49,294 nt of DNA, taken from contig WJIO01000369.1 in NCBI GenBank assembly GCA_014730235.1, positions 1 to 49,294 of the forward strand, read 5' to 3'. This document shows, one piece after another, positions 4,867 through 46,813 of this stretch. The stretch is from Candidatus Poribacteria bacterium. Its GTDB lineage: Bacteria; Poribacteria; DTPJ01; WJIO01. A model generated the notes under the pieces. It searched no databases. It saw only the letters and a program-made list of their open reading frames with translations, and was not told the origin of the DNA. The translations under genes and the position numbers were made by a program. Within the stretch, counting starts at the first letter, position 1. Each line of letters begins with the position of its first letter.

Positions 4867-5083
4867 TCGTTAAAAAATGAGCTTCTTCCGGGTTCAGTGT
4901 GATAATAATTTGAATTTGAAATTCTTTCAGCTTGTCATTCCTGCGAAAGCGGGAATGACAGCATAAAAAAGTTTCTTATCTTTACCACACTGAACCCGGA
5001 AGAGGCAAAAATAAAAGATATGTTTATTATACACACTTTTTTTCTAAAGTTAATCATAAAATTTGTCATTCATTTTTTAACGA
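4867..5083. repeat. PR4 element, copy interrupted by PR1
   Basis: The outer inverted repeat is perfect: TCGTTAAAAAATGA at 4867-4880 and TCATTTTTTAACGA at 5070-5083. The inner sequence after the PR1 insert (AAAGATATGTTTATTATAC, then ATAAAATTTGTCATT) matches the reverse complement of the PR4 copy at 46510-46609. PR1 (4881-5006) sits directly after the left end, so this is a PR4 element split by a later PR1 insertion. It fills most of the gap 4837-5161. Confidence 0.8.
4881..5006 (-). repeat. PR1 MITE, short-core copy nested in PR4
   Basis: 126 bp. Ends: GCTTCTTCCGGGTTCAGTGT on the left and CACTGAACCCGGAAGAGGC on the right. Core is GTCATTCCTGCGAAAGCGGGAATGAC. Flanks are AAAAATGA (4873-4880) and AAAAATAA (5007-5014), an 8-bp target duplication with one mismatch; the uninterrupted target is present in the other PR4 copy. 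It is oriented with the minus-strand DUF72 gene 44 bp away. Confidence 0.85.
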
Positions 5084-5161
5084 TTACAATGAGGGAAGAC
5101 TACTGAAAATAAAAAGAAGGTGAGACACTGAAAAATATCTCACCTTCTTTAACGCTATTAT

Positions 5162-5377
5162 CTATTCGTTATCTTCTTTTTTCTTTTTCTCCCTGGCATG
5201 TAAGCCTTTATCGAGTTTTTCGAGCCTTTTATGCTCTTCCTCGGCTATTAGCTTCTTCATTTCTTCTTTTTTTTCTTCCGATATGGTTATTTTACCTATT
5301 TTACTGGTCTCGTCCAAACCGGCTTCCTTTATCTTAGCCTTAAGAGCTTCTTTTTCTTTTTCCGTAAGTTTTCTCAT
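5162..5377 (-). CDS. Small Lys/Glu-rich helical protein, unknown function
   Basis: A 71-residue protein in which Lys and Glu dominate, predicted almost wholly helical with a C-terminal basic-acidic tail (REKKKKEDNE). No known domain recognised and no signal peptide. I accept it as a gene because a strong ribosome binding site (AAGGAGG) lies nine bases before the ATG and the codon pattern is coherent. It follows korB at 183 bp on the same strand, with a tandemly repeated leader between them. It could be a nucleic-acid- or ribosome-associated small protein, but nothing in the sequence shows this. Confidence 0.65.
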   Translation of the reverse strand: MRKLTEKEKEALKAKIKEAGLDETSKIGKITISEEKKEEMKKLIAEEEHKRLEKLDKGLHAREKKKKEDNE

Positions 5378-5401
5378 TATCTCAAACCTCCTTCACGCCG
5401 G

Positions 5402-5446
5402 ATATCTAACTTTTCGTTATACATATCTAACTTGTTCGTTATACAT
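5402..5446. repeat. Tandem duplication of a ~22-bp unit
   Basis: The unit ATATCTAACTT(T/GT)CGTTATAC occurs twice in direct tandem, 21 and 22 bp long, between korB and the small Lys/Glu-rich gene. It lies in the predicted 5' leader of that gene (minus strand), about 25 bp above its start. It could hold a regulator site or be a replication slippage product. Confidence 0.6.
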
Positions 5447-5560
5447 TAATTTTCCAATAAAAATTACTCCCTCTTCATCACCTCCTTATAACTTAGACGT
5501 ACAAGTCTTTAAAAAAGTTTATATTAATTTGACTTACTCCTGAAAAGCACTATTTCTCTC

Positions 5561-6424
5561 TTAAAAACCTCTTTTAGAATCAATAAGCTCCGATAGCTTA
5601 TCAAAATCAGGAGTTCTATCATAAAGCGGCATTTCGTATTTATCGTATACTGAAAGGCTTTCTTCAAAGAATGGTTTTTCATTTATGTAAAATACACCAA
5701 GGGGAAGTTTTTCCATTTCCAGAGACCGTTTAAAAGCCTCTGTCTTATTTGTAGGATCATAATCTTCTTCCAAATAATATGTATTATTCTTAAACCACTC
5801 ATATGTATTAACCTTGTTATACGAGACACAAGGCTGAAATATATCTACAAGGGCATAGCCCCTGTGTTCAATAGCTTTCTTTATTATATCCCTGGTCTGT
5901 TTAACATCACCAGCAAAAGCCCTGGCCACAAAAGAAGCATCAAGGCTTATCGCCAGAGCAATAGGATTCAGCGGTTCGTTAAATACACCTTTAACCTGTA
6001 TAGACGTCTCAAAACCCTTTTGGCTGGTAGGCGATGCCTGTCCCTTAGTAAGGCCATAAACCATATTATTATGAACCAGATTTGTTATATCCGGGTTTCT
6101 TCTGATAGCATGTATAAAATGGTTGCCGCCCTCCCCATAACTACATCCATCGCCGCTTTCTACTATAACCACTATCTCCCGGTTAGATGCCTTGATGGCT
6201 GTAGCTGGAGGCAGGGAGCGACCATGCAAACCGTTAAAGTAATTTGTCTTGAGATATTGAGGCATTTTTGCCGCCTGACCTATACCGGAGACCATAACAA
6301 GATTTTCAGGTTTTATTTCCAGATCAACCAGAGCCTGCTTAAGTGCATTCAGAATAACAAAATTCCCACATCCGGGGCACCATGCTATATCTATGTCTCC
6401 CATATCAAACTTCGTTGAACTCAT
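5561..6424 (-). CDS. korB: 2-oxoacid:ferredoxin oxidoreductase, beta subunit (TPP-binding)
   Basis: A 287-residue beta subunit of a 2-oxoacid:acceptor oxidoreductase. With CoA it oxidises a 2-oxoacid to the acyl-CoA and CO2, reducing ferredoxin. The cluster-binding motif WCPGCGN sits near the N-terminus. The thiamine-diphosphate site is visible as [13 protein letters not shown] followed by [12 protein letters not shown]. Length fits KorB. AGGAGG overlaps the end of korA and stands eight bases before the ATG; the two genes are 4 bp apart, so they form one operon. The two-subunit architecture favours 2-oxoglutarate, but pyruvate or other 2-oxoacids cannot be excluded by eye. Confidence 0.92.
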
Positions 6425-6428
6425 TTAT

Positions 6429-8156
6429 TTAATCCTCCTGATCTAACATTGACCTTAATTTATTTTCGATTTCCTCAACAGAAAAGGCCAGGCCGTTATA
6501 TTTAAGTATCTTATCATGAGTATCAATACAAAAATTCATTTTAAGCAGTTGACCAAATTGTCCGGTAGCATTATTTTCTATAAGTATCAATTTTTCAGCT
6601 TTTTCCAGTTTTTCCGCCGTATCAGGATGCAGCGGATACACCTGCTTAAAGTGCAGCATTGACAAATCATCATTATCTATATTTTCCATAGCTTCTTTAA
6701 TTGCCGCGTATGTGGATCCCCACGCTATTATCAGGTTTTTGTAATCTTCTGATCCCACCAGTTCCGGCGGAATTATATCTTCTTTCATAACTTCCAGCTT
6801 ATTAAGCCTTTTTTGCACCATGCTTATGCGTACATCAAAATCTTCGGTGATATAACCGGCTTCATCATGTTCGTCACTGTCAGCACAAACCAGGCCTTTG
6901 CCATAACCGGGAACGCCTCTTGGGGATATACCGTTTTCGGTAATTTTATATCGCTTATAATCTTCTTCTGTTTCTATTATATGTTTTTCTACATCTAAAT
7001 CGTCGAGTTTTAAAGTGGTTATATTATAATTCGAGTCCACAAGAAATTGGTCTGTAAGTAAAATTACAGGTACCTGATATTTATCAGCCAGGTTAAAGGC
7101 ATTCTGGCTTAGATAAAAAGCCTCTTCTATAGTTCCGGGTGAAAGCATAATTCGGGGAAAATCACCATGACCTGCAAATAAGGCAAACAAAAGATCCCCC
7201 TGCTCCGTCCTGGTTGGTAAACCCGTAGCTGGTCCCGGTCTTTGGGCCAGGTGTATAACAACCGGGGTTTCCAATATCCCGGCCAGGCTGATGCCTTCGC
7301 TCATAAGGGCAACTCCACCACCTGAAGTGGAGACAATAGCCCTGGCCCCAGCATACCATGCGCCTATGGCCATGTTGATGGCACTAATTTCATCCTGAAC
7401 CTGTTCCGCGACAATGCCAAATTCTTCAGCATTTTTTGACAGAAAAGTGGAAACTCCTGTGGATGGTGACATAGGATAAAATGAAGTAAAATTACAACCA
7501 CCGGCAATAGCACCTATTGCCACAGTTTCTGTTCCACTTACCAGCAGATCGTCTTTTATTGAATCGTCTTTGGGTATTTGCAGTTTTTTACCTTCAAGCA
7601 ATTCCTCGCAGGCTTCGTATCCATGTTTAGCAGCTTCTATGTTATTCTGAACTACTTCATCTCCCTTACTGGAAAATTGATGTTCCAGATAATCATAAAA
7701 CATCTGCAGATCAACTTCAAAAAAGCCTAATAATACAGCCGCTGCCACAGTATTGGTATATATTTTACCTCCTGCTTCAGCCGCTATTTGAGAAAAGGGG
7801 ATATTTACTGAATTATCGCCCCTGTATTCATCCTCAAAAATTTTCTCTTCACCCACAACTACTGTTTCTGATGAAATACGATTTTTTAAATGGTCAACCG
7901 CACCTTTGCTGAAAGGAATAAGAATATCAATCCTGTCAACAGGAGCGGCAACTCTATTTGAGGAAACCCGAATAGATGTGGAATTAGTGCCTCCACGTAT
8001 ACGGGACATAAATTCCTTTGTCGAAAATACGTTATATCCGGAAAGTTTCAAAGCATGAGTCAGGATATATTCCACTGTCTGTATTCCCTGACCCGCTTCG
8101 CCGCAAAGGACTATTGAAATTCCGTCCTTTAAATTCCATAAAACATCAATACCCAT
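6429..8156 (-). CDS. korA: 2-oxoacid:ferredoxin oxidoreductase, fused gamma-alpha subunit
   Basis: A 575-residue fusion. Residues about 10-190 are the gamma domain (VLCGEAGQGIQTVEYIL, then MSRIRGGTNS), and residues about 200-575 are the pyrimidine-binding alpha domain (YPMSPSTGVSTFLSK, EDEISAINMAIGA-type segment, VVIHLAQRPGPATGLPT). It partners korB to form an oxygen-sensitive ferredoxin-linked 2-oxoacid oxidoreductase. No delta (ferredoxin) subunit gene is present, as is usual for the KorAB type. AGGAGG lies upstream of the ATG at a good distance. It starts 20 bp after the beta-barrel gene, so co-transcription with the exported proteins upstream is likely. This supports at least partly anaerobic carbon metabolism. 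Confidence 0.92.
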   Translation of the reverse strand: MGIDVLWNLKDGISIVLCGEAGQGIQTVEYILTHALKLSGYNVFSTKEFMSRIRGGTNSTSIRVSSNRVAAPVDRIDILIPFSKGAVDHLKNRISSETVVVGEEKIFEDEYRGDNSVNIPFSQIAAEAGGKIYTNTVAAAVLLGFFEVDLQMFYDYLEHQFSSKGDEVVQNNIEAAKHGYEACEELLEGKKLQIPKDDSIKDDLLVSGTETVAIGAIAGGCNFTSFYPMSPSTGVSTFLSKNAEEFGIVAEQVQDEISAINMAIGAWYAGARAIVSTSGGGVALMSEGISLAGILETPVVIHLAQRPGPATGLPTRTEQGDLLFALFAGHGDFPRIMLSPGTIEEAFYLSQNAFNLADKYQVPVILLTDQFLVDSNYNITTLKLDDLDVEKHIIETEEDYKRYKITENGISPRGVPGYGKGLVCADSDEHDEAGYITEDFDVRISMVQKRLNKLEVMKEDIIPPELVGSEDYKNLIIAWGSTYAAIKEAMENIDNDDLSMLHFKQVYPLHPDTAEKLEKAEKLILIENNATGQFGQLLKMNFCIDTHDKILKYNGLAFSVEEIENKLRSMLDQED

Positions 8157-8176
8157 CGGTTCTACCTCCTGAAAAT

Positions 8177-8929
8177 CTATAAATAACGCTTAATATTAAA
8201 ACCGAAACGCAACCCTCCGTTTATTGTTGATCCATTCATAAGGCGGTGAAATGTTATATGTGAATCCCTGCTGAAAATAAAATCAAAATGATGTCCATAG
8301 GTTTCAGCTTTCAAACCAAAAGAAAATGAATTATCCCTGTTATCCTCTGATTTTGTGGGAAAATACTCACATATTATACTCAATTTCTGTAGTAGTCCAT
8401 TGCCCTCCATAACCATTATAGAAGCGCCAAATCCCGCTCCAAATTTCTGTTCTTGGCTTTCAAAACCGACATCCACAACTGGAGTTAATCTGTCAAATAA
8501 AGGATCACTTTTTAAAGACAGAATAAATGCACCGCCGTTCTTTCTTTCCTCTTCTCCTGATTCCAGGTCAAATTCCTTGAAATTGAAATATTGAACGTCC
8601 AGTTGTGTTTGCATAGGCGTCAAAGGTATTGGATAGCTGTAATTCACCCCCAGTAAATACTCCTGACTATCCCTGATACGGCCTGCATGTATACCAAGAC
8701 CTTTAAAAACCGTTGCCCCGATTTCTATACTCACGTTTGCCCCGCTATCAAGGCCAAAAAAGGTATCCGATGGTTGGTCATGTAACGTCCCATAAAACCT
8801 GTGTTTGACATTAAATTCTATTTGCCCCACCTCCTCGTTTCCCGGGGCTGCAAGATTTAACATCTCAAGGCTGTAAACAGGTTTAGATAGCATTATAATC
8901 AACAGAAATAATAATAAAAATTTCCGCAC
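8177..8929 (-). CDS. Predicted outer-membrane beta-barrel protein (DUF5777-like)
   Basis: A 250-residue exported protein. The start is GTG, chosen because AAGGTG lies five bases before it and a clean signal peptide follows (MRKFLLLFLLIIMLSKPVYS). The mature part has alternating hydrophobic and polar strands, many Gly and aromatic residues, and ends in an aromatic-rich strand (GLRFGFNIKRYL), as in outer-membrane barrels. The opening region (FFGLDSGANVSIEIG) resembles the DUF5777 beta-barrel family, which tends to occur near cytochromes. Its upstream neighbour is a cytochrome-like protein (86 bp away) and korA follows 20 bp downstream. The barrel call is an inference from pattern; the family name is tentative. 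Confidence 0.65.
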   Translation of the reverse strand: MRKFLLLFLLIIMLSKPVYSLEMLNLAAPGNEEVGQIEFNVKHRFYGTLHDQPSDTFFGLDSGANVSIEIGATVFKGLGIHAGRIRDSQEYLLGVNYSYPIPLTPMQTQLDVQYFNFKEFDLESGEEERKNGGAFILSLKSDPLFDRLTPVVDVGFESQEQKFGAGFGASIMVMEGNGLLQKLSIICEYFPTKSEDNRDNSFSFGLKAETYGHHFDFIFSRDSHITFHRLMNGSTINGGLRFGFNIKRYL

Positions 8930-9015
8930 AATATCACCTTTTTAATAGTATTTTACTCGCTAAGTAAAGTGTCACAGGGACACGCCAACAGAATCTAAAT
9001 TATTATAAATATTGA

Positions 9016-9411
9016 TTAATCAGAGATTCCCACCCTTATTTTACCCCACACAGTAAATTTCTTTTTCTTGGGTTCAACAGGCTCAGCTTTCTCGGGTTTT
9101 GATTCAGGATCACCGGGATGCTTTCCGGCTGCAAATTCTTCGTCATTTGTAAAACCGTCACCATCGGAGTCAAAACTTCCCAATTCATCGGTATATACAT
9201 CACCGGCAGGTATTGCAAAATTTTCCCAGTCCGTACCGAAGGAGTTACGGTTACCCCCTCCGGCGGGATTCGTATGACATGTGCCACAACTAAAATTCTC
9301 ACCTTGATCAGGAAGGAGAGCAACTCTAAAAGGCCTACCTGATGCCATGAAGGAAATACTGAATATAAGAACAATTATAATCGCTGTTAAAAAATATGTA
9401 AATTTTTGCAT
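9016..9411 (-). CDS. Exported monoheme c-type cytochrome-like protein with Ca-binding repeat
   Basis: A 131-residue protein with an N-terminal signal segment (about residues 1-25), then one heme c attachment motif CGTCH in FSCGTCHTNPAGGGNRNSFG. A thrombospondin type 3 or EF-hand-like calcium loop follows (DSDGDGFTNDEEFAAGKHPG), and the tail is rich in Pro, Glu and Lys (KAEPVEPKKKK). It would act in the periplasm or on the cell surface, probably in electron transfer. It precedes the beta-barrel gene and korAB on the same strand. The heme motif and calcium loop are clear; the partner is unknown. Confidence 0.75.
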   Translation of the reverse strand: MQKFTYFLTAIIIVLIFSISFMASGRPFRVALLPDQGENFSCGTCHTNPAGGGNRNSFGTDWENFAIPAGDVYTDELGSFDSDGDGFTNDEEFAAGKHPGDPESKPEKAEPVEPKKKKFTVWGKIRVGISD

Positions 9412-9627
9412 AATTCCATAACCCCATGAGCAAATTTGTGTAATTCGTTATAATTTCCGTGTGAGTTTAATAAAATAACACGACACTACTGATAAAAATT
9501 CCAGGAAATGTTTAAGAGCATTAAAATCCAAATGGCAATTTTCATCCCGAGCGGAGCGAAAAATCTCATCTCCATATTTTCCAAAGTGAAATTTAGAGGG
9601 ATTCACAGTAAGACGAAAAATATATAT
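9412..9627. other. Intergenic region upstream of the cytochrome gene
   Basis: First part of the 753-bp divergent gap 9412-10164. It holds the leader of the minus-strand cytochrome gene and low-complexity sequence with a fragment GAGCGGAGCGAAAAATCTC of the kind common in scattered bacterial repeats. The rest of the gap is two PR1 copies (9628-9788, 9943-10103) and, between them, another repeat fragment (TCATTGCTTCGTCACTCC, about 9825). I see no small gene, RNA gene or clear promoter. Confidence 0.5.
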
Positions 9628-9788
9628 GGCTCTCCGGGTTCAGTGTGGTAAAGATAGGAAAGTTCTTTATGCTGTCATTCCTGCGAAACTCTTATTCCTT
9701 TTTGCTCAAGCTTTTTTAAAAAGCTTGAAGCAGGAATGACAAGCTGAGAAAATTTTCAAATTATTACCACACTCAAGCCGAAAGAGCC
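9628..9788 (+). repeat. PR1 MITE, long-core copy
   Basis: 161 bp, GGCTCTCCGGGTTCAGTGTG to GCCGAAAGAGCC. The core is the long type: GCGAAACTCTTATTCC is inserted before the CTCAAGC hairpin. Flanks ATATATAT and AAAACCTC do not match, so no target duplication survives. Same core type as the copies at 9943 and 11454. Confidence 0.85.
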
Positions 9789-9942
9789 AAAACCTCTGAT
9801 ACAGAATAAAAACTTACTATACATGTCATTGCTTCGTCACTCCATTCTTCGCAATAACACAGGGATGTAAAATTTATGCTTTGCATCAGAATTTCCAGCT
9901 TGCTTTGAAAGGTTCTCTGTGTTATCATTTACTTTCAAATAT

Positions 9943-10103
9943 GGTTCTTCCGGGTTCAGTGTGGTAAAGATAAGAAACTTCTTTATGCTGTCATTCCTGC
10001 GAAACTCTTATTCCTTTTTGCTCAAGCTTTTTTAAAAAGCTTGAAGCAGCAATAACAAGCTGAGGGAATTTTCAATTATAACCACACTTAACCCGGAAGA
10101 ACC
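9943..10103 (+). repeat. PR1 MITE, long-core copy with perfect 8-bp target duplication
   Basis: 161 bp, GGTTCTTCCGGGTTCAGTGT to ACTTAACCCGGAAGAACC. Flanked by TCAAATAT at 9935-9942 and TCAAATAT at 10104-10111, a perfect 8-bp direct repeat. It ends 61 bp upstream of the Gfo/Idh/MocA start and is oriented with that gene. Confidence 0.92.
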
Positions 10104-10164
10104 TCAAATATTAAGTTTGATTAAAAATTTTAATAGGTTAATAGCCTGAAGATAAGGAGAAAAA

Positions 10165-11223
10165 ATGAAAACAGTAAAATTGGGTCTTATAGGTGCAGGA
10201 GGTATAGCCCAGGCCCATATGAGAGCCATGTCAGAAGTTTCCGGTGTTGAGATAGCCGCAGCCTCAGATCTGATAGAATCCAATGTAAAACGCACTGCCG
10301 AAAGATGGGGAATACCTAAGACTTTCACTGATTATAACGAAATGCTGAAGATGGACGAACTGGATGGGGTTATAGTCTGCACACCTACAGCCGTCCATGC
10401 CCCTCCGACCATAGCAGCTCTCAAAGCTGGAAAACATGTACTTTGTGAAAAGCCAATGGAAGCGTCACTGGATGCAGCCACAGAGATGGTAGCCACTGCC
10501 CACAAAACCGGTAAAATCCTGATGATAGCTCTTAAACTACGTTATACCCCCCAGGTCATTAAAGCCAAAAAGATCATTAATGAAGGAACACTGGGAGATA
10601 TTTACTACGCAGAAACAGTAGCTGACAGAAGAAGAGGAAACCCCGGTGGAAGCTTTATAAGAAAAGCCACAGCCGGATTTGGCGCAGCCGCTGACATAGG
10701 TGTTTATGCTTTAGACACAGCCCTTTACCTTATGGGACATCCTAAACCTGTCGCGGTCATGGGCATGACCTCAAACTACCTGAGCCTGCACAACACATGG
10801 AATCCCGCTCTTAAGGAAACTGAAGTTGAGGACTTTGCCACAGGATGGATACTATTTGAAAATGGAGCGCGCCTAGTCTTCAAGACATGCTGGTGTATGA
10901 ATATGGACTCTCTGGGTGGAACTATATTCCTGGGAACAAAAGCCGGTCTACGTATTGGTGTCAGTGAAGTTCGAGGTCCCCAGGAAGGTGTTACCCTCTA
11001 TAGAGATGAATTTGGCGATCCCTTCGATATTAAAATACCCACAGGCGATGGCGTTGACGTGTTCAAAGCCGAGGATGCAGCCTTTGTGGATGCCGTTCGT
11101 GAAGGTAAACCATCACCTATAGACCCTGATGGCATGTTGCTTACGAATGTTATTATCCAGGGTGTTATTGACTCCCAGGAAAAAGGCGGTCGAGAAGTTG
11201 AGGTAAAAGTTCCTACTTTCTAA
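10165..11223 (+). CDS. Gfo/Idh/MocA family oxidoreductase
   Basis: A 352-residue NAD(P)-binding sugar dehydrogenase-like protein. Motifs: LGLIGAGGIAQAHMRAM (Rossmann), VIVCTPTAVHAPPTIAALKAGKHVLCEKPMEAS with the catalytic EKP lysine, and a C-terminal substrate domain with GAAADIGVYALDTALYLMG, where Asp replaces the more usual His-containing motif. AAGGAG precedes the ATG. It is a single gene behind a PR1 element, followed by a divergent PR1-like repeat and then uvrB. It probably acts on a monosaccharide from polymer breakdown; the substrate cannot be told. Confidence 0.93.
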   Translation: MKTVKLGLIGAGGIAQAHMRAMSEVSGVEIAAASDLIESNVKRTAERWGIPKTFTDYNEMLKMDELDGVIVCTPTAVHAPPTIAALKAGKHVLCEKPMEASLDAATEMVATAHKTGKILMIALKLRYTPQVIKAKKIINEGTLGDIYYAETVADRRRGNPGGSFIRKATAGFGAAADIGVYALDTALYLMGHPKPVAVMGMTSNYLSLHNTWNPALKETEVEDFATGWILFENGARLVFKTCWCMNMDSLGGTIFLGTKAGLRIGVSEVRGPQEGVTLYRDEFGDPFDIKIPTGDGVDVFKAEDAAFVDAVREGKPSPIDPDGMLLTNVIIQGVIDSQEKGGREVEVKVPTF

Positions 11224-11231
11224 TCAGAATT

Positions 11232-11397
11232 GGTTCTTCCGATTCAGTATGAAAATAAAATCACTTATGACTTAGCTTGCCTCGGAAGGATAAAGCTCCT
11301 GTTGAGCTTTTGCTCAATATCAGTTGCAGAATTCAGCAAGAGCTTTGTCTTCCTGTTTTAGTTTTCCACACTCAGATCGGAAAAGCCTATTTTTCCC
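11232..11397. repeat. Divergent PR1-related element
   Basis: Left end GGTTCTTCCGATTCAGTATG and right end CCACACTCAGATCGGAAAAGCC are PR1-like, but the core is different (GAAGGATAAAGCTC with a GAGCTTTTGCTC hairpin, and CAAGAGCTTTGTCTTCC as partner). No 8-bp flank match. It starts 8 bp after the oxidoreductase stop. A fragment of PR3 (CCCTTAATAAGGG) follows at about 11405. Together with the PR1 copy at 11454 it fills the 462-bp gap before uvrB. A 92-codon open frame here is made only of repeat sequence. Confidence 0.6.
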
Positions 11398-11453
11398 TTA
11401 ATAAGGGTATAGGGGGTATTTCCCCAAAAAAAAAACTGAAATTTAAAATCTTT

Positions 11454-11614
11454 GGCTCTTCCGGGTTCAGTTTGGTAAAGATAAGAAACTTCTTTATGCT
11501 GTCATTCCTGCGAAACTCTTATTCCTTTTTGCTCAAGCTTTTTCAAAAAGCTTGAAGCAGGAATGACAAGCTGAGGGAATTTTTAATTATAACCACACTT
11601 AACCCGGAAGAACC
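11454..11614 (+). repeat. PR1 MITE, long-core copy with perfect 8-bp target duplication
   Basis: 161 bp, GGCTCTTCCGGGTTCAGTTT to ACTTAACCCGGAAGAACC. Flanks AAATCTTT (11446-11453) and AAATCTTT (11615-11622) are identical. It ends 71 bp upstream of uvrB and is co-directional with it. Long core, as at 9628 and 9943. Confidence 0.92.
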
Positions 11615-11685
11615 AAATCTTTTATTACACTTGCTTATTTTCATTTCTAGGTTACGTTAAAAATTAAGAAGGAAGGTAAAAGAAA

Positions 11686-13668: not shown

Positions 13669-13697
13669 GCAATAGTTAAAAATTAATATCCCTTATA

Positions 13698-13842
13698 TTT
13701 CTCAAAATTAACTAAAACCAGATATTGTGTTCCTTAAAGGAACACTAGCAAATGAAAATGCTGTCAGGCTGTCATTCCTGCCTTCACAGGAATGAAATGC
13801 TTATAAAGTTTTTCATTTTTACCACACAAAACCTCGAAGAAT
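13698..13842. repeat. Chimeric repeat: PR2 left half joined to PR1-like right half
   Basis: The left part (TTTCTCAAAATTAACTAAAA ... CTAGCAAATGAAAATGCTGTCAGGCT) is PR2, as at 3788. The core is short (GTCATTCCTGCCTTCACAGG). The right part (AAAGTTTTTCATTTTTACC, then ACCACACAAAACCTCGAAGAATC) matches a decayed PR1 end, not PR2. This suggests recombination between families inside the shared core. It lies between the convergent ends of uvrB and the response-regulator gene and could serve as a terminator. Confidence 0.6.
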
Positions 13843-13857
13843 CATTTAAATTAATAA

Positions 13858-15765: not shown

Positions 15766-15792
15766 TTCTTATACCTCTCTATAGAGATTTAA

Positions 15793-17277: not shown

Positions 17278-17321
17278 TCCTGTTTTCCCGTAACCTCTTT
17301 GAAAATATACCGAAATTTCAT

Positions 17322-17375
17322 AATTAACTATAAAAAAAGCGAAGTATAGTAAACATATCTTTCATTTTTTAACTA
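17322..17375. repeat. PR4 fragment or deleted copy
   Basis: The segment GTATAGTAAACATATCTTTC plus CATTTTTTAAC is nearly identical to the right end of the PR4 copy at 46510-46609. A degenerate left end (TTAACTATAAAAAAAG) may be present at 17322. It lies about 45 bp above the histidine kinase start, within the 139-bp gap between the kinase and transporter genes. Confidence 0.55.
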
Positions 17376-17416
17376 ATATAAGTATCGGCTTTATGGGTTG
17401 ATAACTTTAGAAGAGA

Positions 17417-18322: not shown

Positions 18323-18332
18323 TATAAAATTT

Positions 18333-18372
18333 GGTTTTTCCGGGTCCAGTTTGGTAAAGATAAAAAACTTAT
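18333..18372 (+). repeat. PR1 left-half fragment
   Basis: GGTTTTTCCGGGTCCAGTTT followed by GGTAAAGATAAAAAACTT matches the left 40 bp of PR1. Core and right end are absent. It abuts the truncated gene at 18369-18536, so the junction is probably a deletion endpoint. Its orientation is opposite to the minus-strand transporter just downstream. Confidence 0.75.
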
Positions 18373-18536
18373 TTAAAGCTATATGTCTTATTGATTGCGT
18401 CAATAGTAGGCGCATAAACCCAGGTTGAAAAGCCCATATGAAAACGTCGAGGAAAATTTTCATCTTTGCTTTCTGCTGTCGTTATCGCTGTTACTATTAT
18501 CAAAATTCCCAATACATACCAGAATATATATTTCAC
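18369..18536 (-). pseudogene. Truncated exported-protein gene (55-codon stub)
   Basis: A proper translation start is present: GGAGG, seven bases, then GTG at 18536. It encodes a signal peptide (KYIFWYVLGILIIVTAITTA) and the first mature residues ESKDENFPRRFHMGFSTWVY, then APTIDAINKTYSF, then a stop at the PR1 fragment. The mature start looks like the opening of a larger secreted enzyme, possibly a glycoside-hydrolase-like barrel, but I cannot name the family with confidence. I interpret it as a gene whose 3' part was deleted together with half of a PR1 element. Confidence 0.55.
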
Positions 18537-18700
18537 TTCACATCCTCCAATATCTATTCGCGTATGATACCGGCCGGAGGATCTTTACGGACACTGCCGG
18601 TTTACTACTGATTAAACTATAAGCTGCCGCAAGTCATGAAGATTGAAAATTTAATCGGGTAATCCCTTTCTTTTCTCAGAATATTCTGGCTCTTCAAGTA

Positions 18701-18747: not shown

Positions 18748-18767
18748 CCATGAATAACCTGAAATCT

Positions 18768-24413: not shown

Positions 24414-24555
24414 GGCTCTTCCGGGTTCAGTGTGGTAAGGATAAGAAACTTCTTCATGCTGTCATTCCTGCTTCAAGCTTTTTTAAAAAAGCTTGAAGCA
24501 GGAATGACAAGCTGAAAGAATTTTCAATTATAACCACACTGAACCCGGAAGAGCC
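24414..24555 (+). repeat. PR1 MITE, medium-core copy with perfect 8-bp target duplication
   Basis: 142 bp, GGCTCTTCCGGGTTCAGTGT to ACTGAACCCGGAAGAGCC, the copy closest to the consensus. Flanks ATTTACTT (24406-24413) and ATTTACTT (24556-24563) are identical. Inserted directly after the LamG stop codon and 27 bp before the lyase start, co-directional with both. Confidence 0.94.
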
Positions 24556-27680: not shown

Positions 27681-27745
27681 TATTCGTTATTTTTCTCAGG
27701 ATTGCAACTGTTAATCATTTAGTTCTATGTTTAATTATAGAATTC

Positions 27746-27818
27746 GTCATTCCTGACTTTGCAGGAATGACAAGTTGAGAGAATTTTTAATTGTAACCAC
27801 ACTGAACCCGGAAGAACC
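27746..27818 (+). repeat. PR1 right-half fragment
   Basis: GTCATTCCTGACTTTGCAGGAATGAC core followed by AAGTTGAGAGAATTTTTAATTG and the right end ACCACACTGAACCCGGAAGAACC. The left end is lost. Together with a promoter at 27986 this is what the 415-bp gap 27681-28095 holds; nothing else was seen. Confidence 0.75.
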
Positions 27819-30811: not shown

Positions 30812-30816
30812 TTTTA

Positions 30817-33212: not shown

Positions 33213-33241
33213 TATCTCCAAATCATTTGTTAAAAAGGTTC

Positions 33242-33369
33242 GGCTTTTCCGGCTTGAGTGTGGTGATAATTTGAAAATTTTCTCAGACTGTCATTCCTGC
33301 GAAAGCAGGAATCCAGTAGATCCGCATAAAGAAGTCTCTTATCTTTACCACACTAAATCCGGAAGAACC
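33242..33369 (-). repeat. PR1 MITE, short-core copy
   Basis: 128 bp, GGCTTTTCCGGCTTGAGTGT to CACTAAATCCGGAAGAACC. Core GTCATTCCTGCGAAAGCAGGAATCC is followed by an extra AGTAGATCC. Flanks AAAGGTTC (33234-33241) and AAAGGTCT (33370-33377) agree at six of eight positions. It lies about 30 bp above the start of the ABC operon and is co-directional with it. Confidence 0.82.
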
Positions 33370-35627: not shown

Positions 35628-35639
35628 TTTATAACCTGT

Positions 35640-39509: not shown

Positions 39510-39588
39510 TAATAGATAACTCCCTATTGCACTTATATCACGAAAGGGTAATTTGTAATTAAGTTTAAGTAATTTTCAGAAAATATCT

Positions 39589-39729
39589 GGTTCTTCCGGG
39601 TTCAATGTGGTTATAATTGAAAATTCCCTCAGCTTGTCATTCCTGCTTCAAGCTTTTTCAAAAAGCTTGAAGCAGGAATGACAGCATAAAGAAGTTTCTT
39701 ATCTTTACCACACTGAACCCGGAAGAACC
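39589..39729 (-). repeat. PR1 MITE, medium-core copy with perfect 8-bp target duplication
   Basis: 141 bp, GGTTCTTCCGGGTTCAATGT to ACTGAACCCGGAAGAACC. Flanks AAATATCT (39581-39588) and AAATATCT (39730-39737) are identical. It lies 79 bp above the SLBB gene and below rpoD, co-directional with both. Confidence 0.93.
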
Positions 39730-39749
39730 AAATATCTTCAACTTTCTTC

Positions 39750-39819
39750 TAATGGGCAAAGCCCATTATTACCCCTTAATAAGGGGGCGAATGGGATTTT
39801 TAGCGCGGTTGAAAACTTT
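39750..39819. repeat. PR3 repeat, copy 2
   Basis: TAATGGGCAAAGCCCATT, CCCCTTAATAAGGGGGCGA, GGGATTTTTAGCGCGGTTG and GAAAACTT in the same order as at 4008-4077. It lies 21 bp beyond the rpoD stop and could form a terminator-like stem (CCCCTTAATAAGGGG followed by ATTTTTAG on the plus strand). Confidence 0.65.
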
Positions 39820-39840
39820 AAATTAACTACTGAGATTTGT

Positions 39841-41607
39841 TTATAAATCCTTTTGTTCTGCAAAACCTTTTAGCTGGCGGCTTCTAACGGGATGGCGTAG
39901 CTTTTTAAGAGCTTTTGCCTCAATTTGCCGAACTCTTTCACGAGTTACATTAAATACACTGCCAACCTCTTCTAAAGTACGCTGATATCCATCATTTAAA
40001 CCAAATCGCAGGGATATTACTTCCTTTTCCCGATCCGAAAGGGTATAAAGAACATCTTCAATCTGCATCCCCAGCATGCTATATATTGCTTCATTTGCAG
40101 GACATTTTGCATCTTTATCCTCGATGAAGTCAGAGAGATGAGTATTATCCTCATCACCTATGTTAGTTTCCAGAGAAATAGGCTCTTGGGCGATCTGAAG
40201 CACCTGTCGAACCTTATCAACGGGCAGATTCATCTCTTTTGCCAGTTCCTGGGGGGTAGGTTCTCTGCCGGTTTCCTGAACTATATGCTTTGAGGCTCTG
40301 ATTAGTTTATTTATTGTTTCGATCATATGAACTGGAATTCGAATAGTTCTCGCCTGGTCAGCAATGGCCCTGGTTATGGCCTGTCTTATCCACCAGGTGG
40401 CATAGGTGCTGAATTTATATCCTCTGCGATATTCAAATTTATCCACAGCTTTCATCAGACCTATGTTACCCTCCTGTATCAAATCAAGGAACATAAGTCC
40501 GGGACTTCTGTTGGTATATTTCTTGGCAATACTGATAACAAGACGTAAATTTGCCTCAACGATCTTCATTTTTGCTTCATAGGCGAGCATTTCACCTTGT
40601 CTTATGTGTTCTACTATATCCTCAATCCTACCGCTGGGAATACCAACTTCCCTTTCCAGTCGTTTGATATTACGCTTTGCTCTTACTATTTGTTTATTAT
40701 AATCCAGAAGCTTTTCCCAGTTATATTCTGCTGGAATGTTATGTTTATTCAGGGTAACGTTTTGCACAAGATTTGTTATATCTTCCGCCTTTAATCCTGA
40801 TTTCTTTTCTACGTTTTTTATTTCTGCTCTTGATGTAGCTATGCTTTCGCTTATTTTTTTTATTTTATCAACAATTTTATCTAATTCTTCCCGACATATC
40901 CCCAATTCTTTGATAATATCTACAATCTGTTTTTTCTTATGATCTATCTCTTCAATGAAATCAGCAACTTTTGCAGAAGGTATACCGTTATGTCTTATAA
41001 GATTTTCCCGATGGGCTATTCCGCTTTCCAGACTTTTTATACACTCAAGTGTTTTCTTTATATTTTTTAGTATTTTAAATTCATGATCAACTGAAGATTT
41101 TCTATGAAATGGTAAATCTATAACATTAGAGCATTTTATTTTTCTATTCAGAATTTTGCTGAATAAACACTTCATCTCTGAAATGACAATCGGAACTTCA
41201 AAAACGGTATCCTCTACTATCTTTTTACCCTTTTCAATATTTCTCGATAGTTGTATCTCCTCTTTTTTGTTGAGAAGTGGAAATCTTCCCATCTGCCTTA
41301 GATAGAGTTTCACCGGATCATCAGATCCTGAAGTCCTGCCAGGACTTAAATCCATATCTTCAATATTACAATTATCCATATTCGTTAATTCATTATCATT
41401 ATCTATATCAGCAGACTCCATCTCTTTGACATCTGATTCGCTCAAAATTTGTACATCAAGTTCTTCCAATTTTCCTAAAACGTCATCAATTTCTTCTGCC
41501 GAAACTGTTTCTTCTGGCAAAGCATTGTTAATATCACTAAATGTAATATATCCCTTTTCCCTGCCGATGCTGATGAGTTCAGCGTTAATTCTGCTTTGTT
41601 GTCTCAT
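39841..41607 (-). CDS. rpoD: Primary sigma factor RpoD (sigma-70)
   Basis: A 588-residue housekeeping sigma factor. Region 1.1 is present (about 1-60, [26 protein letters not shown]), then 1.2 ([24 protein letters not shown]), a long non-conserved region, 2.1-2.4 ([55 protein letters not shown]), 3 ([13 protein letters not shown]), and 4.2 with the helix-turn-helix ([31 protein letters not shown]). It follows dnaG by 45 bp, as in the classic macromolecular synthesis operon. AGGAGAAG precedes the ATG. The consensus promoters found in the window fit its expected specificity. Confidence 0.98.
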
Positions 41608-41652
41608 TACAACATGCTTCTCCTGTTGAAATTCCGGTTCTTGATTTAATGC

Positions 41653-43461
41653 CTAAGAACCGTCAATGGTAGACTTACCCCTTTGGCGCAGTTCCATTAA
41701 TTTCCTGGCCATAGCTATACTATCTTCATTACTTTCCTGTTTTAAAGAACGCCGGAACTCCCTTTCCCGGAATTCCTGAATTTTATTTATACATCCGCTA
41801 AATTCCTCTTCGATACGGATTTCGCTTATTGCCTCAGGATCAGCTCTTTTCAGTATCAACCCAGAAACAATATCTCTGGATTCTCTGCTTTTACATTTAT
41901 TAATTAACTCGCCCAGATCAAACTTCTCTCCGTTCTGATTATCGTTGGACCATACTATAATCTTCGCCAATTCAGCATATCCTTCCTTTGAAAAATCATC
42001 CGGTGTAAGTCTTGTTCGGGCTTGTTTAATAAGCTGAGGATGTTGTATCAGGCATTCCAGCAAACGTTTTTCAATTCTTTCCCGGGCATTCAGTCGTGAC
42101 GAGGGTTTTATGGTAGGTTGAGTAGAGCGTCGTATCCGTTTACCCGCTCCTGCGTCATCAAGTTGCTGCCATATATAATCTTCTTCTATATTCATCTTTT
42201 CAGCACTTTTTTTTACATATTCATGCTTTTCAACAGGATTATTTAAATTGGCCAGAGTTGCCACTAATTCCTCTGTAGCCTGTTTCTTTCCATCTATGCT
42301 GTTAATGCCAATCTGTTCCTGTATTTTTTGAATTTTATGGTCTACCAAATCAACTGCCTCGGAAAGCAGGTCTCGGAAAGTATCTACCCCATTTTCACGG
42401 ATAAAATCATCAGGATCCTTACCCTCAGGTAAAGTCAGCATCCTGACTTTTAAATCACCTTTAACCAGCAAGTTTAACCCTCTGGCAGTAGCCGCTGCTC
42501 CAGCAGTATCAGAATCATACGCAATAATAACTTCGTTGGTGTAACGTTTGATTAAGTTTACATGACCTTCACTTAATGATGTGCCTAAAGATGCCACTAC
42601 ATTATGGATTCCTTCCTGAAAGCATGTTATAACATCCATATAGCCCTCGGTAAGTATAACGAATCCCTCTTTGCTAATGGCTTCTTTAGCCAGGTTTAAA
42701 TTATAAAGTGATCTGCTTTTATTATAAAGCGGGGTTTCCGGTGAATTCATGTATTTTATATCAGATCGCGTCACAGGGTCTTCAGATGAGCTAATTGTTC
42801 TCCCCCCAAAGCCGATTGGTTCACCCCGAACATCAAATATAGGAAACATCACCCGGCCGCGAAAACGGTCATAATAACCGTCTTTCTGCTTTCGCTCTAA
42901 AATAAAACCTCCTTTAAGCATCACTTTTGTAGAAAATCCAGCTTTTCCAGCGGCTTTTAAAAACGCGTCCCAACTTGGTAAAGAATAGCCAAGTTTGAAG
43001 CTATCTATCGTATTATCTTTAATACCACGTTCCCTGAAGTATGTCAAGGCCTCTTTGCCATATTTGCTATTTAAAAGCACTTTTTGGTAATAACTTACGG
43101 CGGATCTGTTTAATTCCAGCAGTTCATCCCTGGATTTTCTGAGAATTTTACTCCCTTTGGACTCAGGAAGAGAGACACCACACTTTGAAGCCAGGAACTT
43201 CACAGCTTCCGGATATTCCATCTTTTCATGCTTCATTAAAAACGTAAAAATATCTCCTGCCTCTCCGCATCCAAAGCACTTAAACATCTGTCTCTCACGA
43301 CTTACCATAAAAGACGGTGTTTTTTCATCATGAAAAGGACATAGACCTTTGAAATTTTTTCCAGCAGCGGAAAGAGGCACATACTCGGATATAATATCCA
43401 CTATATCACAGCGTTCCTTTATTTCTTCCTTTACGTTATCTGTTATAAATCCTTTAGCCAA
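41653..43461 (-). CDS. dnaG: DNA primase
   Basis: A 602-residue DnaG that makes RNA primers for replication. The N-terminal CHC2 zinc finger is visible (LCPFHDEKTPSFMVSRERQ, then FKCFGCGEAGD), then the primase core (YDRFRGRVMFPIFDVRGEPIGFGGR) and the TOPRIM domain (VILTEGYMDVITCFQEGI, VIIAYDSDTAG). The start is TTG at 43461, with GAGGTG nine bases ahead; I see no better ATG. It lies 47 bp after mutS2 and 45 bp before rpoD on the same strand. Confidence 0.97.
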   Translation of the reverse strand: MAKGFITDNVKEEIKERCDIVDIISEYVPLSAAGKNFKGLCPFHDEKTPSFMVSRERQMFKCFGCGEAGDIFTFLMKHEKMEYPEAVKFLASKCGVSLPESKGSKILRKSRDELLELNRSAVSYYQKVLLNSKYGKEALTYFRERGIKDNTIDSFKLGYSLPSWDAFLKAAGKAGFSTKVMLKGGFILERKQKDGYYDRFRGRVMFPIFDVRGEPIGFGGRTISSSEDPVTRSDIKYMNSPETPLYNKSRSLYNLNLAKEAISKEGFVILTEGYMDVITCFQEGIHNVVASLGTSLSEGHVNLIKRYTNEVIIAYDSDTAGAAATARGLNLLVKGDLKVRMLTLPEGKDPDDFIRENGVDTFRDLLSEAVDLVDHKIQKIQEQIGINSIDGKKQATEELVATLANLNNPVEKHEYVKKSAEKMNIEEDYIWQQLDDAGAGKRIRRSTQPTIKPSSRLNARERIEKRLLECLIQHPQLIKQARTRLTPDDFSKEGYAELAKIIVWSNDNQNGEKFDLGELINKCKSRESRDIVSGLILKRADPEAISEIRIEEEFSGCINKIQEFREREFRRSLKQESNEDSIAMARKLMELRQRGKSTIDGS

Positions 43462-43508
43462 TCTTTATTACACCTCTGAAATTATCATATAATATAAATG
43501 CAAATAAA

Positions 43509-45932
43509 TCAAACTAATTCTACCACAGTAACACCCGATCCGCCTTCGTTTGTATTACCAAGACGAAAGTTTGAAACATGGGGATGGTCGCTTAATAATT
43601 CGGTAACAGCCTGTCGCAAAGCCCCGGTTCCTTTGCCATGCACTATAGATACTGATTCCAAACCGGCTAAGGCAGCATCATCCAGGTATTTATCGGTCTT
43701 TCTAAGGGCTTCGTCGGCTCTTGCACCTCTCAAATCTAGAGAGGGTAATACATTGGATTTTCTCGACCGTTGAATTTTAACTATATTCTTTAAACCGGGG
43801 GTTGATTTGCTGGAATCCCGAGTATCCTTGAAATTCCGGGTAACTCTGGATTTCTCTTTTTTGGCCTTATCAGTAATCCGTATATCCGAAACTGACAGGT
43901 TTAGTTTGATGCCATTCATCATAACCTGAATAGTATCTTTTGAATCGGGAAGGCTTGTTAACGTGCCAAAGTTATCCAGGCTTTCAATATAAACCTTATC
44001 ACCTATTTTTAGTTCTTCAGCATCAACTTTCCTTCCAATATCACGTTTTTCTGGTCTTATTGATCTGCTTATTTCTTTTTTTCTTTCTGAGATCTTTTGT
44101 CTTGCTTTCTGGATAACCTGTTCCGATGCTTTTTCTTTGCGGAGTTCCGATATAGTGTCGTCTATAAGTTTTTTTGATTTCTGGATAATATTCGCAGCTT
44201 CCCGGTAGGCTTCATTTTCCAGTTCTCGTCTTTTGCTCTTAAGCTGCTGCAAAAGCATTTCGTGTTCCTGCTGTGTTCTGGATGCGGAACGAACTTTTTC
44301 CTCTGTAATACGCTTTTGCTCTTCCAGTTCCCGACGCATGTTATCGACATTTGCAATAAGATCAGCCACTTCCATTATTTCTGATCCCAGGTATTTTTCA
44401 GCATTTTCCAGAATTTCCTCTGGAAGTCCAAGTTTACTGGCAATCTTAAGGGCATTGCTGCTGCCGGGAATACCGATTCTTAATTCATATGTAGGACTCA
44501 GGGTTTCCAGGTTAAAAGCCATAGATGCATTTTCCATACCTTCTTGGGAATGTGCGTGGGCTTTTAATGAATCATGGTGGGTTGTGGCGATGGTTAATGA
44601 GTTCAAAGAATGAAGATAATCGAGGATAGCCATTCCTAGAGCTGCACCTTCTGATGGTTCTGTCCCGGCTCCCAGTTCGTCCAGGAGAATCAGGGAAGAA
44701 TAATCGGCTTCTTTTATTATACCGATAATACGGGTCATATGGGATGAAAAAGTGCTCAGGTTTTGCTCGATGCTTTGCTCATCACCAATGTCAGCAAAAA
44801 CGTCGGTGAAAACGGACATTTGGCTTTCGTCCTCGGCAGGAATATGAAGACCGCTTTGCATCATCAGTGTAAGTAAACCGGCTGTTTTCAGGGCAACAGT
44901 TTTTCCACCGGTATTTGGTCCAGTTATCACCAGGGTTCTGAAGTCTTTTCCCGCGTAAAGATCAATTGGTATGACTTTATGACCCTCCTGGGATATCATT
45001 TGTAAAATAGGATGTCGGGCTTTTTTGAGATCAATATATCCGTCTTCATTCAAAATAGGTTTAGTTGTATCCAGTTTAAGACAAAACGATGCTTTGGCGT
45101 TCATCATATCAATTTCAGCCAAAATATCTACAGTTATCTCCAGTTCTGGAAGTATATCATGAACCTTTGTCGTAAGTTCCCGAAGAATTCTTCGCTCTTC
45201 GGCCAGTTCCTGATCCGCCAGTTCGCGCATCTGGTTATTAAGCTCAACGGTTTTTTCCGGCTCAACAAAAACGGTAACACCACTGGTGGAACTTGCCTGG
45301 ATCACCCCCGGAATACTGCCTTTGTAATTTTGTTTTACGGGGATGACATACCTGTTGTTACGAAGTGTTATGACGTTTTCCTGGATAGCGGTACGATAAT
45401 TGGGGGAGTGCAGTATTGATTCAAGCTGGTCAATAATTTTCTGGCGAACGGATACTAACTGCTTGCGTATTCTGGAAAGTGCCGGGCTGGCATTATCCAT
45501 AATAGCACCATCCGGATCAATGCACCTATTAATTTCTTCTTCCAGTTCTGGAAAGCTTATGATATTGTCGATAATTTCTGATACAAGGGGTGCTTCTTCT
45601 GATATCTTTTTATGAAATTTTTTAAGGTTTTTTGCTACCCGAGAAATAGAAGATATGTCCAGAATTTGATTTGGTTCAAGTATAGCACCTGATACTTCTG
45701 CAAGTTTCATTAAGTTTCTTATATCTTTAATCCCACCCAGGGGTAGACCACCTTTTAATATCTTTATCTCTTTTAATTCACTGCATATATCCAGCATATA
45801 TTTGATCTGTTCTGTATTAACGACAGGATGCAGATCATCTATAAGGGATCTACCGAGATTGGATGAGCAGTATTCCCCAATCATTCCCCGGATTTTGTCA
45901 AATTCCAATATTTTTTCTAGATCTTGATTCAT
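43509..45932 (-). CDS. mutS2: Endonuclease MutS2
   Basis: An 807-residue MutS2, which lacks the mismatch-recognition domains of MutS1 and is linked to suppression of recombination or rescue of collided ribosomes. The ATPase has VITGPNTGGKTVALKTAGLL (Walker A), SSLILLDELGAGTEPSEG (Walker B) and TIATTHHDSLKAHA. A coiled coil lies at about 515-640, and a C-terminal Smr nuclease domain (LPSLDLRGARADEALRKTD, VSIVHGKGTGALR) completes it. No ribosome binding site is visible before the ATG; a PR1 element ends 18 bp upstream. It leads the dnaG-rpoD genes, where rpsU is found in many other bacteria. Confidence 0.97.
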   Translation of the reverse strand: MNQDLEKILEFDKIRGMIGEYCSSNLGRSLIDDLHPVVNTEQIKYMLDICSELKEIKILKGGLPLGGIKDIRNLMKLAEVSGAILEPNQILDISSISRVAKNLKKFHKKISEEAPLVSEIIDNIISFPELEEEINRCIDPDGAIMDNASPALSRIRKQLVSVRQKIIDQLESILHSPNYRTAIQENVITLRNNRYVIPVKQNYKGSIPGVIQASSTSGVTVFVEPEKTVELNNQMRELADQELAEERRILRELTTKVHDILPELEITVDILAEIDMMNAKASFCLKLDTTKPILNEDGYIDLKKARHPILQMISQEGHKVIPIDLYAGKDFRTLVITGPNTGGKTVALKTAGLLTLMMQSGLHIPAEDESQMSVFTDVFADIGDEQSIEQNLSTFSSHMTRIIGIIKEADYSSLILLDELGAGTEPSEGAALGMAILDYLHSLNSLTIATTHHDSLKAHAHSQEGMENASMAFNLETLSPTYELRIGIPGSSNALKIASKLGLPEEILENAEKYLGSEIMEVADLIANVDNMRRELEEQKRITEEKVRSASRTQQEHEMLLQQLKSKRRELENEAYREAANIIQKSKKLIDDTISELRKEKASEQVIQKARQKISERKKEISRSIRPEKRDIGRKVDAEELKIGDKVYIESLDNFGTLTSLPDSKDTIQVMMNGIKLNLSVSDIRITDKAKKEKSRVTRNFKDTRDSSKSTPGLKNIVKIQRSRKSNVLPSLDLRGARADEALRKTDKYLDDAALAGLESVSIVHGKGTGALRQAVTELLSDHPHVSNFRLGNTNEGGSGVTVVELV

Positions 45933-45950
45933 TATAAATCTAAATAGTAT

Positions 45951-46070
45951 GGTTCTTCCGGATTTAGTGTGGTTATAGTTGAAAATTCTCTCAACTTGTC
46001 ATTCCTGCAAAGGCAGGAATGACAGCATAAAAAAGTTTCTTATCTTTATCACACCGAACCCGGAAGAGCC
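45951..46070 (-). repeat. PR1 MITE, short-core copy with perfect 8-bp target duplication
   Basis: 120 bp, GGTTCTTCCGGATTTAGTGT to ACCGAACCCGGAAGAGCC. Core GTCATTCCTGCAAAGGCAGGAATGAC. Flanks AATAGTAT (45943-45950) and AATAGTAT (46071-46078) are identical. It ends 18 bp above the mutS2 start and is co-directional with it. Confidence 0.93.
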
Positions 46071-46123
46071 AATAGTATTTACTGTCTTTCTGCAAATAAT
46101 TCTAAAAAATTAAAGATTAGTTT

Positions 46124-46256
46124 TTATCATTCCTGCTTCAAGCTTTTTTAAAAAAAGCTTGAAGCAGGAATGATAAGTAAAACATGTCAAAGATGACAAG
46201 TAAAGTAAATTTTTATGTGTGAGTTTCTCAATTAACACACTTAACTATGAAGAGGC
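46124..46256 (+). repeat. Decayed PR1 with a perfect core hairpin
   Basis: A perfect inverted repeat TTATCATTCCTGCTTCAAGC ... GCTTGAAGCAGGAATGATAA occupies 46124-46176. Downstream, TTCTCAATTAACACACTTAACTATGAAGAGGC (46225-46256) is a decayed PR1 right end. The left end is lost. Region 46257-46438 holds no gene or other repeat that I can see. Confidence 0.6.
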
Positions 46257-46438
46257 TAAATTTTTAGGCTAATGATGAGAGAACTATAAAATGAATCTGG
46301 AAAAAGTGGTATCAGATATATAAGAGAGGTTCTTTGAAGCAAAGATAAAATTACCGATTACTAATATCATTATAACGGCAAACATTTACCTTGTCAAGAT
46401 GGATGAAATCGGGTTTATACAGCAAATAGACAAACCTA

Positions 46439-46467
46439 TTGACATAGAATAACTGATATAATATAAT
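46439..46467 (+). promoter_or_regulatory. Consensus sigma-70 promoter
   Basis: Perfect TTGACA (46439-46444), a 17-bp spacer, and perfect TATAAT (46462-46467). The next gene on this strand starts at 46886, so the leader would be about 410 nt and would contain the PR4 and PR1 elements. It may alternatively drive an untranslated RNA. Confidence 0.75.
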
Positions 46468-46509
46468 AGCGAAAGCATAAGGTGCGAATATATTATTTTG
46501 TTAAAGTAA

Positions 46510-46609
46510 TCGTTAAAAAATGGATATCACTTAGTTGTCATTTCTGCGTTCTCAGGAATGACAAATTTTATAATTGAGTATAGTAAACATATCTTTCATT
46601 TTTTAACGA
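46510..46609. repeat. PR4 element, intact copy
   Basis: 100 bp with inverted ends TCGTTAAAAAATG (46510) and CATTTTTTAACGA (ending 46609). The core GTCATTTCTGCGTTCTCAGGAATGAC is PR1-like. It contains GTATAGTAAACATATCTTTC, also present at 17343 and, inverted, at 5016. It is the undisturbed reference for the interrupted copy at 4867-5083. Confidence 0.78.
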
Positions 46610-46692
46610 CTAAGTTAAAGAGAGGTTTTTTCTTACTAAAAAACAAATTTTAATAATGTAGTTCTTCATGTCTAAGTTTGGTAGATTAAATG

Positions 46693-46813
46693 GGCTATTC
46701 CGGGTATGATGTGGAAATATTTTGAAAATTTTTTAAGCTTATCATTCCTGCAAAAGCATGAATGACAAAACATAAGAGTTTCTTATTATTACCGCACTTA
46801 ACTCAGAAGAACC
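46693..46813 (-). repeat. PR1 MITE, diverged short-core copy
   Basis: 121 bp, GGCTATTCCGGGTATGATGT to CTTAACTCAGAAGAACC, with core ATCATTCCTGCAAAAGCATGAATGAC. Flanks do not match. Orientation is minus, opposite to the plus-strand gene 72 bp downstream; this is the only near-complete copy with that arrangement. Confidence 0.75.

Follow-up and report, generated by a model that had tools for sequence, protein, structure and literature searches.

PR1, an abundant MITE family of a Candidatus Poribacteria genome: its REP-type centre and its hybrids with other MITE families

The contig C313 of a Candidatus Poribacteria genome, analysed here as one stretch of 49,294 nucleotides (the window), carries many copies of a short inverted repeat, PR1. 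How does such a repeat spread, and what does it mean that its centre recurs in repeats with other ends? The preliminary description regarded PR1 as a MITE, and that part stood; it overlooked that the centre is a REP common to other MITE families and that there are nested and hybrid copies. We consider it probable that PR1 is an ISL3-moved MITE with a REP centre and that the families swap arms at this core. Taken alone, PR1 adds a new and very abundant family to a known type of MITE; of more interest are the common REP core and the probable exchange of arms.

PR1 in the window and in the whole genome

The consensus of the PR1 end, GGYTCTTCCGGGTTCAGTGT, has 17 matches with at most 3 mismatches in the window, and none in dinucleotide shuffles. 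The nine copies with inverted ends listed previously were all found at their positions, the one at 46693 being diverged, and the flanks described for them (five perfect 8-bp repeats, one with a single mismatch at 4881 and one with two at 33242) were recovered as well. The elements of the window are as follows (strand is given where one was assigned).

3782..3994, D-family MITE with REP core as in PR1; TIR CTGAKAWTTCTAAAA, 5-bp target duplication (TSD) TATTT
4863..5087, E-family MITE hosting the PR1 copy 4881..5006; TIR ATAATCGTTAAAAAATG / GTAATCGTTAAAAAATG, 5-bp duplication AATGA
4881..5006, PR1 copy, arm B, core, arm A, nested in an E-type MITE at the E TIR; flanks AAAAATGA / AAAAATAA, one mismatch
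9628..9788, PR1 copy, A, core, B, left end damaged; without target duplication
9943..10103, PR1 copy, A to B; exact 8-bp TSD TCAAATAT
11454..11614, PR1 copy, A, core, B; exact 8-bp TSD AAATCTTT
13704..13843, hybrid of D1 arm, REP core and decayed PR1 end
18333..18379, plus strand, PR1 A half alone (end match), without core or second end
24414..24555, PR1 copy, A, core, B, one long hairpin when folded; exact 8-bp TSD ATTTACTT
24461..24508, example of the shared core, a CGTC-1-type REP palindrome in its long-loop variant; GTCATTCCTGC...GCAGGAATGAC
27682..27818, hybrid of a foreign arm 'H', REP core and PR1 B arm; without 8-bp duplication
33242..33369, PR1 copy, its centre a single REP with CCAG tail; flanks AAAGGTTC / AAAGGTCT, two mismatches
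39589..39729, PR1 copy, B, core, A; exact 8-bp TSD AAATATCT
45951..46070, PR1 copy, B, core, A, of the commonest 120-bp class; exact 8-bp TSD AATAGTAT
45998..46023, example of the shared core in its N4 form; GTCATTCCTGC-AAAG-GCAGGAATGAC
46506..46613, E-family MITE with REP core as in PR1, diverged; 6-bp TSD GTTAAA
46693..46813, PR1 copy, B, core, A, old and diverged; without target duplication

In the whole genome (G000; 5.53 Mb, 451 contigs), 358 + 366 = 724 PR1 ends were counted with at most 3 mismatches to GGNTCTTCCGGGTTCAGTGTGGT. The reversed pattern, used as a control, had no match in the whole genome, and the PR1 end was absent from all 83 other genomes of the phylum that were searched. 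The count amounts to some 360 element equivalents, on average one in every 15 kb or so; the density of one per 5 kb proposed earlier holds for the window, which is richer than average, but not genome-wide. Copy number was taken solely from this whole-genome pattern count, because the stretches that were read (1.16 Mb, 21% of the genome) came from contigs partly chosen for holding PR1.

Among 116 convergent pairs of PR1 ends in the 1.16 Mb, 50 have exact 8-bp flank repeats, compared with a mean of 0.59 for shuffled partners, and in a further 20 the flanks are one base apart. Exact repeats of 6, 7, 8, 9 and 10 bp were found at 2, 7, 50, 1 and 0 pairs, and this sharp peak shows that the duplication length is 8, not 7 or 9. 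The arrival of PR1 by transposition, put forward from the window, is thus borne out by copies elsewhere in the genome, whose flanking 8-mers agree far above chance. A paralogous empty site was also found: PR1 (L131 7231-7351) splits an E element at AAAAATGA, which is duplicated there and single in unbroken E copies. Of the short pairs, 63 of 113 are without an exact TSD, due in part to decay, nesting and hybrids.

The 113 paired copies range from 52 to 244 bp, with TIRs of 22-23 bp. Most fall into size classes of 120, 141, 164 and 205 bp, which differ chiefly at the centre, TGTCATTCCTGC-(N4, N25, N48 or about N90)-GCAGGAATGACA; the main arms are A (GGYTCTTCCGGGTTCAGTGTGGTAAAGATAAGAAACTTCTTTATGC) and B (GGYTCTTCCGGGTTTAGTGTGGTTATAATTGAAAATTCTCTCAGCT), the C, F and G arms being rarer. 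PR1 is a real MITE family: it is shorter than 300 bp and without coding capacity, and has terminal inverted repeats and a TSD of fixed length. At TIR positions 16 and 18, the left and right variants of the 113 copies agree above shuffles (z 6.3 and 4.8), as if the arms of one copy were sometimes corrected against each other. Apart from these positions left-right covariation is weak, and we make no claim of structural selection on the TIRs.

The centre of PR1 and the families that share it

The core of PR1 reads TGTC-ATTCCTGC-NNNN-GCAGGAAT, that is, a CGTC/TGTC tag, an 8-bp stem from AT and a 4-nt loop. In Di Nocera et al. (2013, PMC3733652), CGTC-1 REPs, among them dRS3 of Neisseria, are defined by an 8-bp stem starting with AT, a 4-nt loop and a CCA tail, with TGTC variants. 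The N48 class of the core, GGAATCCAG..CTGGATTCC, also has the CCA tails and the head-to-head dimer of CGTC-1. The N4 class, commoner than N48, is without the CCA tail, as a fused dimer would be, and may have arisen when a head-to-head dimer collapsed between its equal stems. By its sequence, PR1 has a CGTC-1-type REP palindrome at its centre, either singly or as a dimer of head-to-head units. In the sequence read, a core lies within 75 bp of 287 of the 332 PR1 ends; the other 45, without a nearby core, include short coreless copies with near-perfect TSDs. One PR1 copy (L104 10844-11005, exact TSD TTTTTAAT) has a different palindrome at its centre, GTAGGGACACGGTATACCGTGTCCCTAC, resembling a GTAG-tagged REP.

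Three further MITE families were recognised: E (TIR GTAATCGTTAAAAAATG, duplications of about 6 bp such as AATATT and GTTAAA), D (TIR CTGAKAWTTCTAAAA, duplications of 5-6 bp such as TATTT and TGGTT) and K (TIR CCAAGCATAAAATTTATGTCC, 9-bp duplications). The centres of E and D are the REP core as in PR1, although their TIRs and duplication lengths differ, which points to other transposases. In the sequence read, 183 core units were typed, with both arms in 151, one arm in 27 and no recognised arm in 5. With P for PR1, the pairs of arms were P|P 110, E|E 11, D|D 6, E|P 16, D|P 4, D|E 1 and others 3, and the core size classes N4, N25, N45 and N48 occurred inside and outside paired PR1 copies. An exact 8-bp TSD surrounds about 46 of 104 PR1-PR1 units versus none of 27 others (Fisher p = 2e-6). 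A subfamily of E, 91 bp long and coreless, has its own duplications (L053 14564-14654, L102 8802-8892, L105 9015-9105); its junction relative to core-bearing E lies at an AAT microhomology, and it is either a deletion product or the ancestral state. In the window, a further core with an 'I' arm (TTTACTG...GATTAGTTTTT) at 46072-46174 adjoins the PR1 copy 45951-46070 and possibly represents a further MITE family.

Relatives also have CGTC-1 REPs (41 in G001, 172 in G008 and 12 in G010). In G008, which belongs to another family, 33 of the 42 sequences flanking REPs are repeats in their own right (0 in the control), and the REPs lie inside an element of 164-166 bp with the TIR TGACCTCATGCGTAAAGTTGGGACATT and 8-bp duplications (L268-L275). 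Among five distinct copies of this element, the duplication is exact in one and one base off in two. As these REPs are centred in an element with another TIR, REP-centred MITEs are not peculiar to PR1. The CGTC-1 REPs of G008 also occur inside a second family, with ends near GGCAGTCTCTATAGGCGATGAT.

The PR1 core thus resembles the CGTC-1 REPs, including the neisserial dRS3, described in PMC3733652, in tag, stem, loop, CCA tail and head-to-head dimers. The REPs surveyed there mostly lack an association with other repeats and have no transposase, whereas here nearly all are at the centre of TIR-bearing elements with TSDs. The same survey describes neisserial intergenic mosaic regions, made of dRS3 and other repeats (PMC3733652), and here too CGTC-1 units are interleaved with several repeat families; however, the outer repeats here are the arms of MITEs, which have TIRs and whose TSDs are of defined length. 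It likewise places the CGTC-1 dimers of H. neapolitanus always within a longer palindrome, as are the dimers here, but for that outer palindrome the accessible part reports no TIR class or target duplication (PMC3733652).

The transposase that may move PR1

The TIR of PR1 starts with GGYTCTTCCGG, like the ends of ISL3 elements, and its 8-bp duplications are AT-rich and equal in length to those of ISL3 insertions, as seen at full-length ISL3 relatives. In the same phylum an ISL3 element has a GGCTCTTCCG end; in G014 the ISL3 transposase gene lies between GGCTCTTCCGCAATTTATGTGG and GGTTCTGTCGCAATTTATGTGG, ends that are alike at 19 of 22 positions; the beginning of the PR1 TIR, GGYTCTTC, is that expected of an ISL3-type MITE when compared with GGCTCTTCCGCAATTTATGTGG. 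A search of the genome with the PF01610 profile gave three pieces of ISL3 transposase, each at the end of a contig:

C342:4019-4533 (L034), ISL3 transposase fragment at a contig end
C236:1-382 (L035), ISL3 transposase fragment at a contig end
C391:1-185 (L036), ISL3 transposase fragment at a contig end

Such a location is expected where multi-copy IS break the assembly, and multi-copy IS are probably missing from it. The visible termini of these fragments, GGTTCATCCGGTTAATGCGTAG (C342) and GGATTCATCCGGGAAATGCC (C391), are related to the PR1 TIR but not equal to it, about 16 of 23 positions being alike for C342. In both C342 and C391, the stop codon of the ISL3 gene lies inside the terminal inverted repeat. 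In a collection scan with a 58-aa C-terminal ISL3 alignment, other bacteria yielded full-length relatives of C342; these end in GGTTCATCCG and, in several cases, are flanked by exact 8-bp duplications.

No transposase gene bounded by PR1 ends was found in the 21% of the genome that was read, and inspection of coreless PR1 ends in this sequence gave no IS interior. Three spans between PR1 ends considered as autonomous elements (L049, 2.5 kb; L053, 2.8 kb; L144, 1.1 kb) contain other genes and no recognisable transposase; they are chance pairings of separate PR1 copies.

A 187-nt MITE of Microcystis aeruginosa, with an ITR from GGCTCTTCG and 8-nt direct repeats, was assigned to the ISL3 type (PMC11448079). 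Like PR1 it is short and was assigned by the match of end and TSD; however, the Microcystis genome has an ISL3 element with ends matching its MITE, of which the assembly with PR1 shows no visible counterpart, while PR1 differs in its about 360 copies, its REP core and the occurrence of this core in other MITE families (PMC11448079). This precedent (PMC11448079), the TSD statistics, the start of the TIR and the ISL3 fragments uphold the view of PR1 as a MITE whose ends are ISL3-like and whose duplications are 8 bp long. The mover had been suggested to be an ISL3 transposase encoded elsewhere in the genome; three fragments are indeed present, but none shows the exact ends of PR1. From these likenesses in sequence, we infer with good probability that an ISL3-type transposase moves PR1.

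Nested and hybrid copies and their possible origin

PR1 is frequently nested in the other families. Nine copies lie inside K elements, all at one fixed AAAACTTT site, which indicates that the nested pair was amplified as a unit (composite copies with PR1 at AAAACTTT are seen at L123 5724-5919, L131 7433-7644 and L152 18269-18464). Nine copies have an E TIR on one side, and one lies inside D. Furthermore, 24 units of mixed families join exactly at the core. The unit L101 5289-5482 consists of an E arm, the core, a complete D half and the outer end of the other E arm (E2), which is the remainder predicted from insertion of D into an E arm and loss between the two cores. The units L143 4764-4965 and L135 18566-18795 each consist of an E arm, the core, a PR1 half and an outer E end, and the E-type duplications around them (AATAAAA and GAATA, respectively) suggest that such products moved again.

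The TSDs, the common core, the nesting and the hybrids themselves are seen in the sequence; from these end products we infer that the hybrids arise by nested insertion followed by exchange or deletion between cores. The cores are often only 26-28 bp long, which is little for recombination by RecA, so that homologous recombination is no likelier than slippage during replication or single-strand annealing at the hairpins. In the mechanism proposed here, an ISL3-family transposase, the gene of which is not visible in the assembly, would recognise the 22-23 bp TIRs of PR1 and insert the element into AT-rich intergenic DNA with duplication of 8 bp. E and D, which have the same REP centre, would be moved by other transposases; one MITE would insert into the arm of another, and recombination or deletion between the two identical palindromic cores would remove the stretch between them, leaving one arm from each. 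A hybrid whose outer TIRs still match could then transpose again. The REP would thereby spread as a passenger and as the junction of several transposase systems, without a transposase of its own.

One may argue that PR1 is merely a high-copy ISL3 MITE, with an incidental REP-like centre and with hybrids made by random decay. The strong TIR and TSD evidence and the published ISL3 MITE (PMC11448079) agree with this, and the coreless copies with near-perfect TSDs indicate that the core is not needed for mobility. We nevertheless think it unlikely, because the core accompanies the large majority of PR1 ends and is equally central in E and D, a REP is central in another MITE of G008, and the mixed units meet exactly at the core, where random decay would break elsewhere. 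Quite unlikely, too, is a core that is itself mobile (REPIN-like, with a Y1/RAYT or other enzyme) and entered the centres of existing MITEs. The CGTC REPs without PR1 arms in G001, G008 and G010, the coreless 91-bp E subfamily and the one Y1 transposase in the assembly (C236:3450-3809) are consistent with such a core; however, none of the PR1 copies resembles an empty site that is clean, the coreless copies of PR1 and D have the look of deletion products, and the difference in the 91-bp E falls at an AAT microhomology. Furthermore, 178 of the 183 cores adjoin one MITE arm or two, insertion would not be expected to give different arms on the left and right, and CGTC REPs are reported to have no link to RAYT genes (PMC3733652).

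As for the mover, families besides ISL3 also give 8-bp TSDs, and no ISL3 gene with matching ends is visible; PR1 could thus be moved by a transposase of another family. This is improbable in view of the start of its TIR, GGYTCTTCC, an ISL3 signature found also in the same-phylum ISL3 and in the Microcystis ISL3 and its MITE (GGCTCTTCG). Already disfavoured, and in our opinion very improbable, is the explanation that PR1 persists chiefly for a role as regulatory RNA or as a terminator hairpin, and not as mobile DNA. PR1 avoids genes: in the sequence read, where ORFs of 100 aa or longer make up 82%, 109 of 113 PR1 midpoints fall outside them, and single strands of the copies fold into long hairpins far better than shuffles (z -7 to -17). 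However, such folding is expected from the inverted repeats, the TSDs show arrival by transposition, and PR1 shows no preference for sites between convergent genes (10 copies there, against 58 between tandem and 26 between divergent genes).

The exchange of arms between REP-centred MITEs may have a wider bearing. The movement of CGTC REPs (dRS3 of Neisseria and relatives) has been posed as an open question; PMC3733652 gives them no dedicated transposase and suggests that 'a broad spectrum of transposases' may mobilise them. We see an even balance for and against the idea that they spread as a common recombination junction of MITEs, nesting and core-core exchange swapping the TIRs and making new families, so that a REP population changes its transposase over time. 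If true, this would offer a concrete, testable route for their movement, with REPs in MITEs of three systems of TIR and duplication length; the hybrids would document arm exchange, and new MITE families could arise with no need for a fresh internal deletion in a parent IS. Mosaic non-autonomous elements made from MITEs are known from the Tn3-derived TIME and TIME-COMP (PMC4133298); TIMEs combine copies of one family, whereas here arms of different transposase systems join at the REP.
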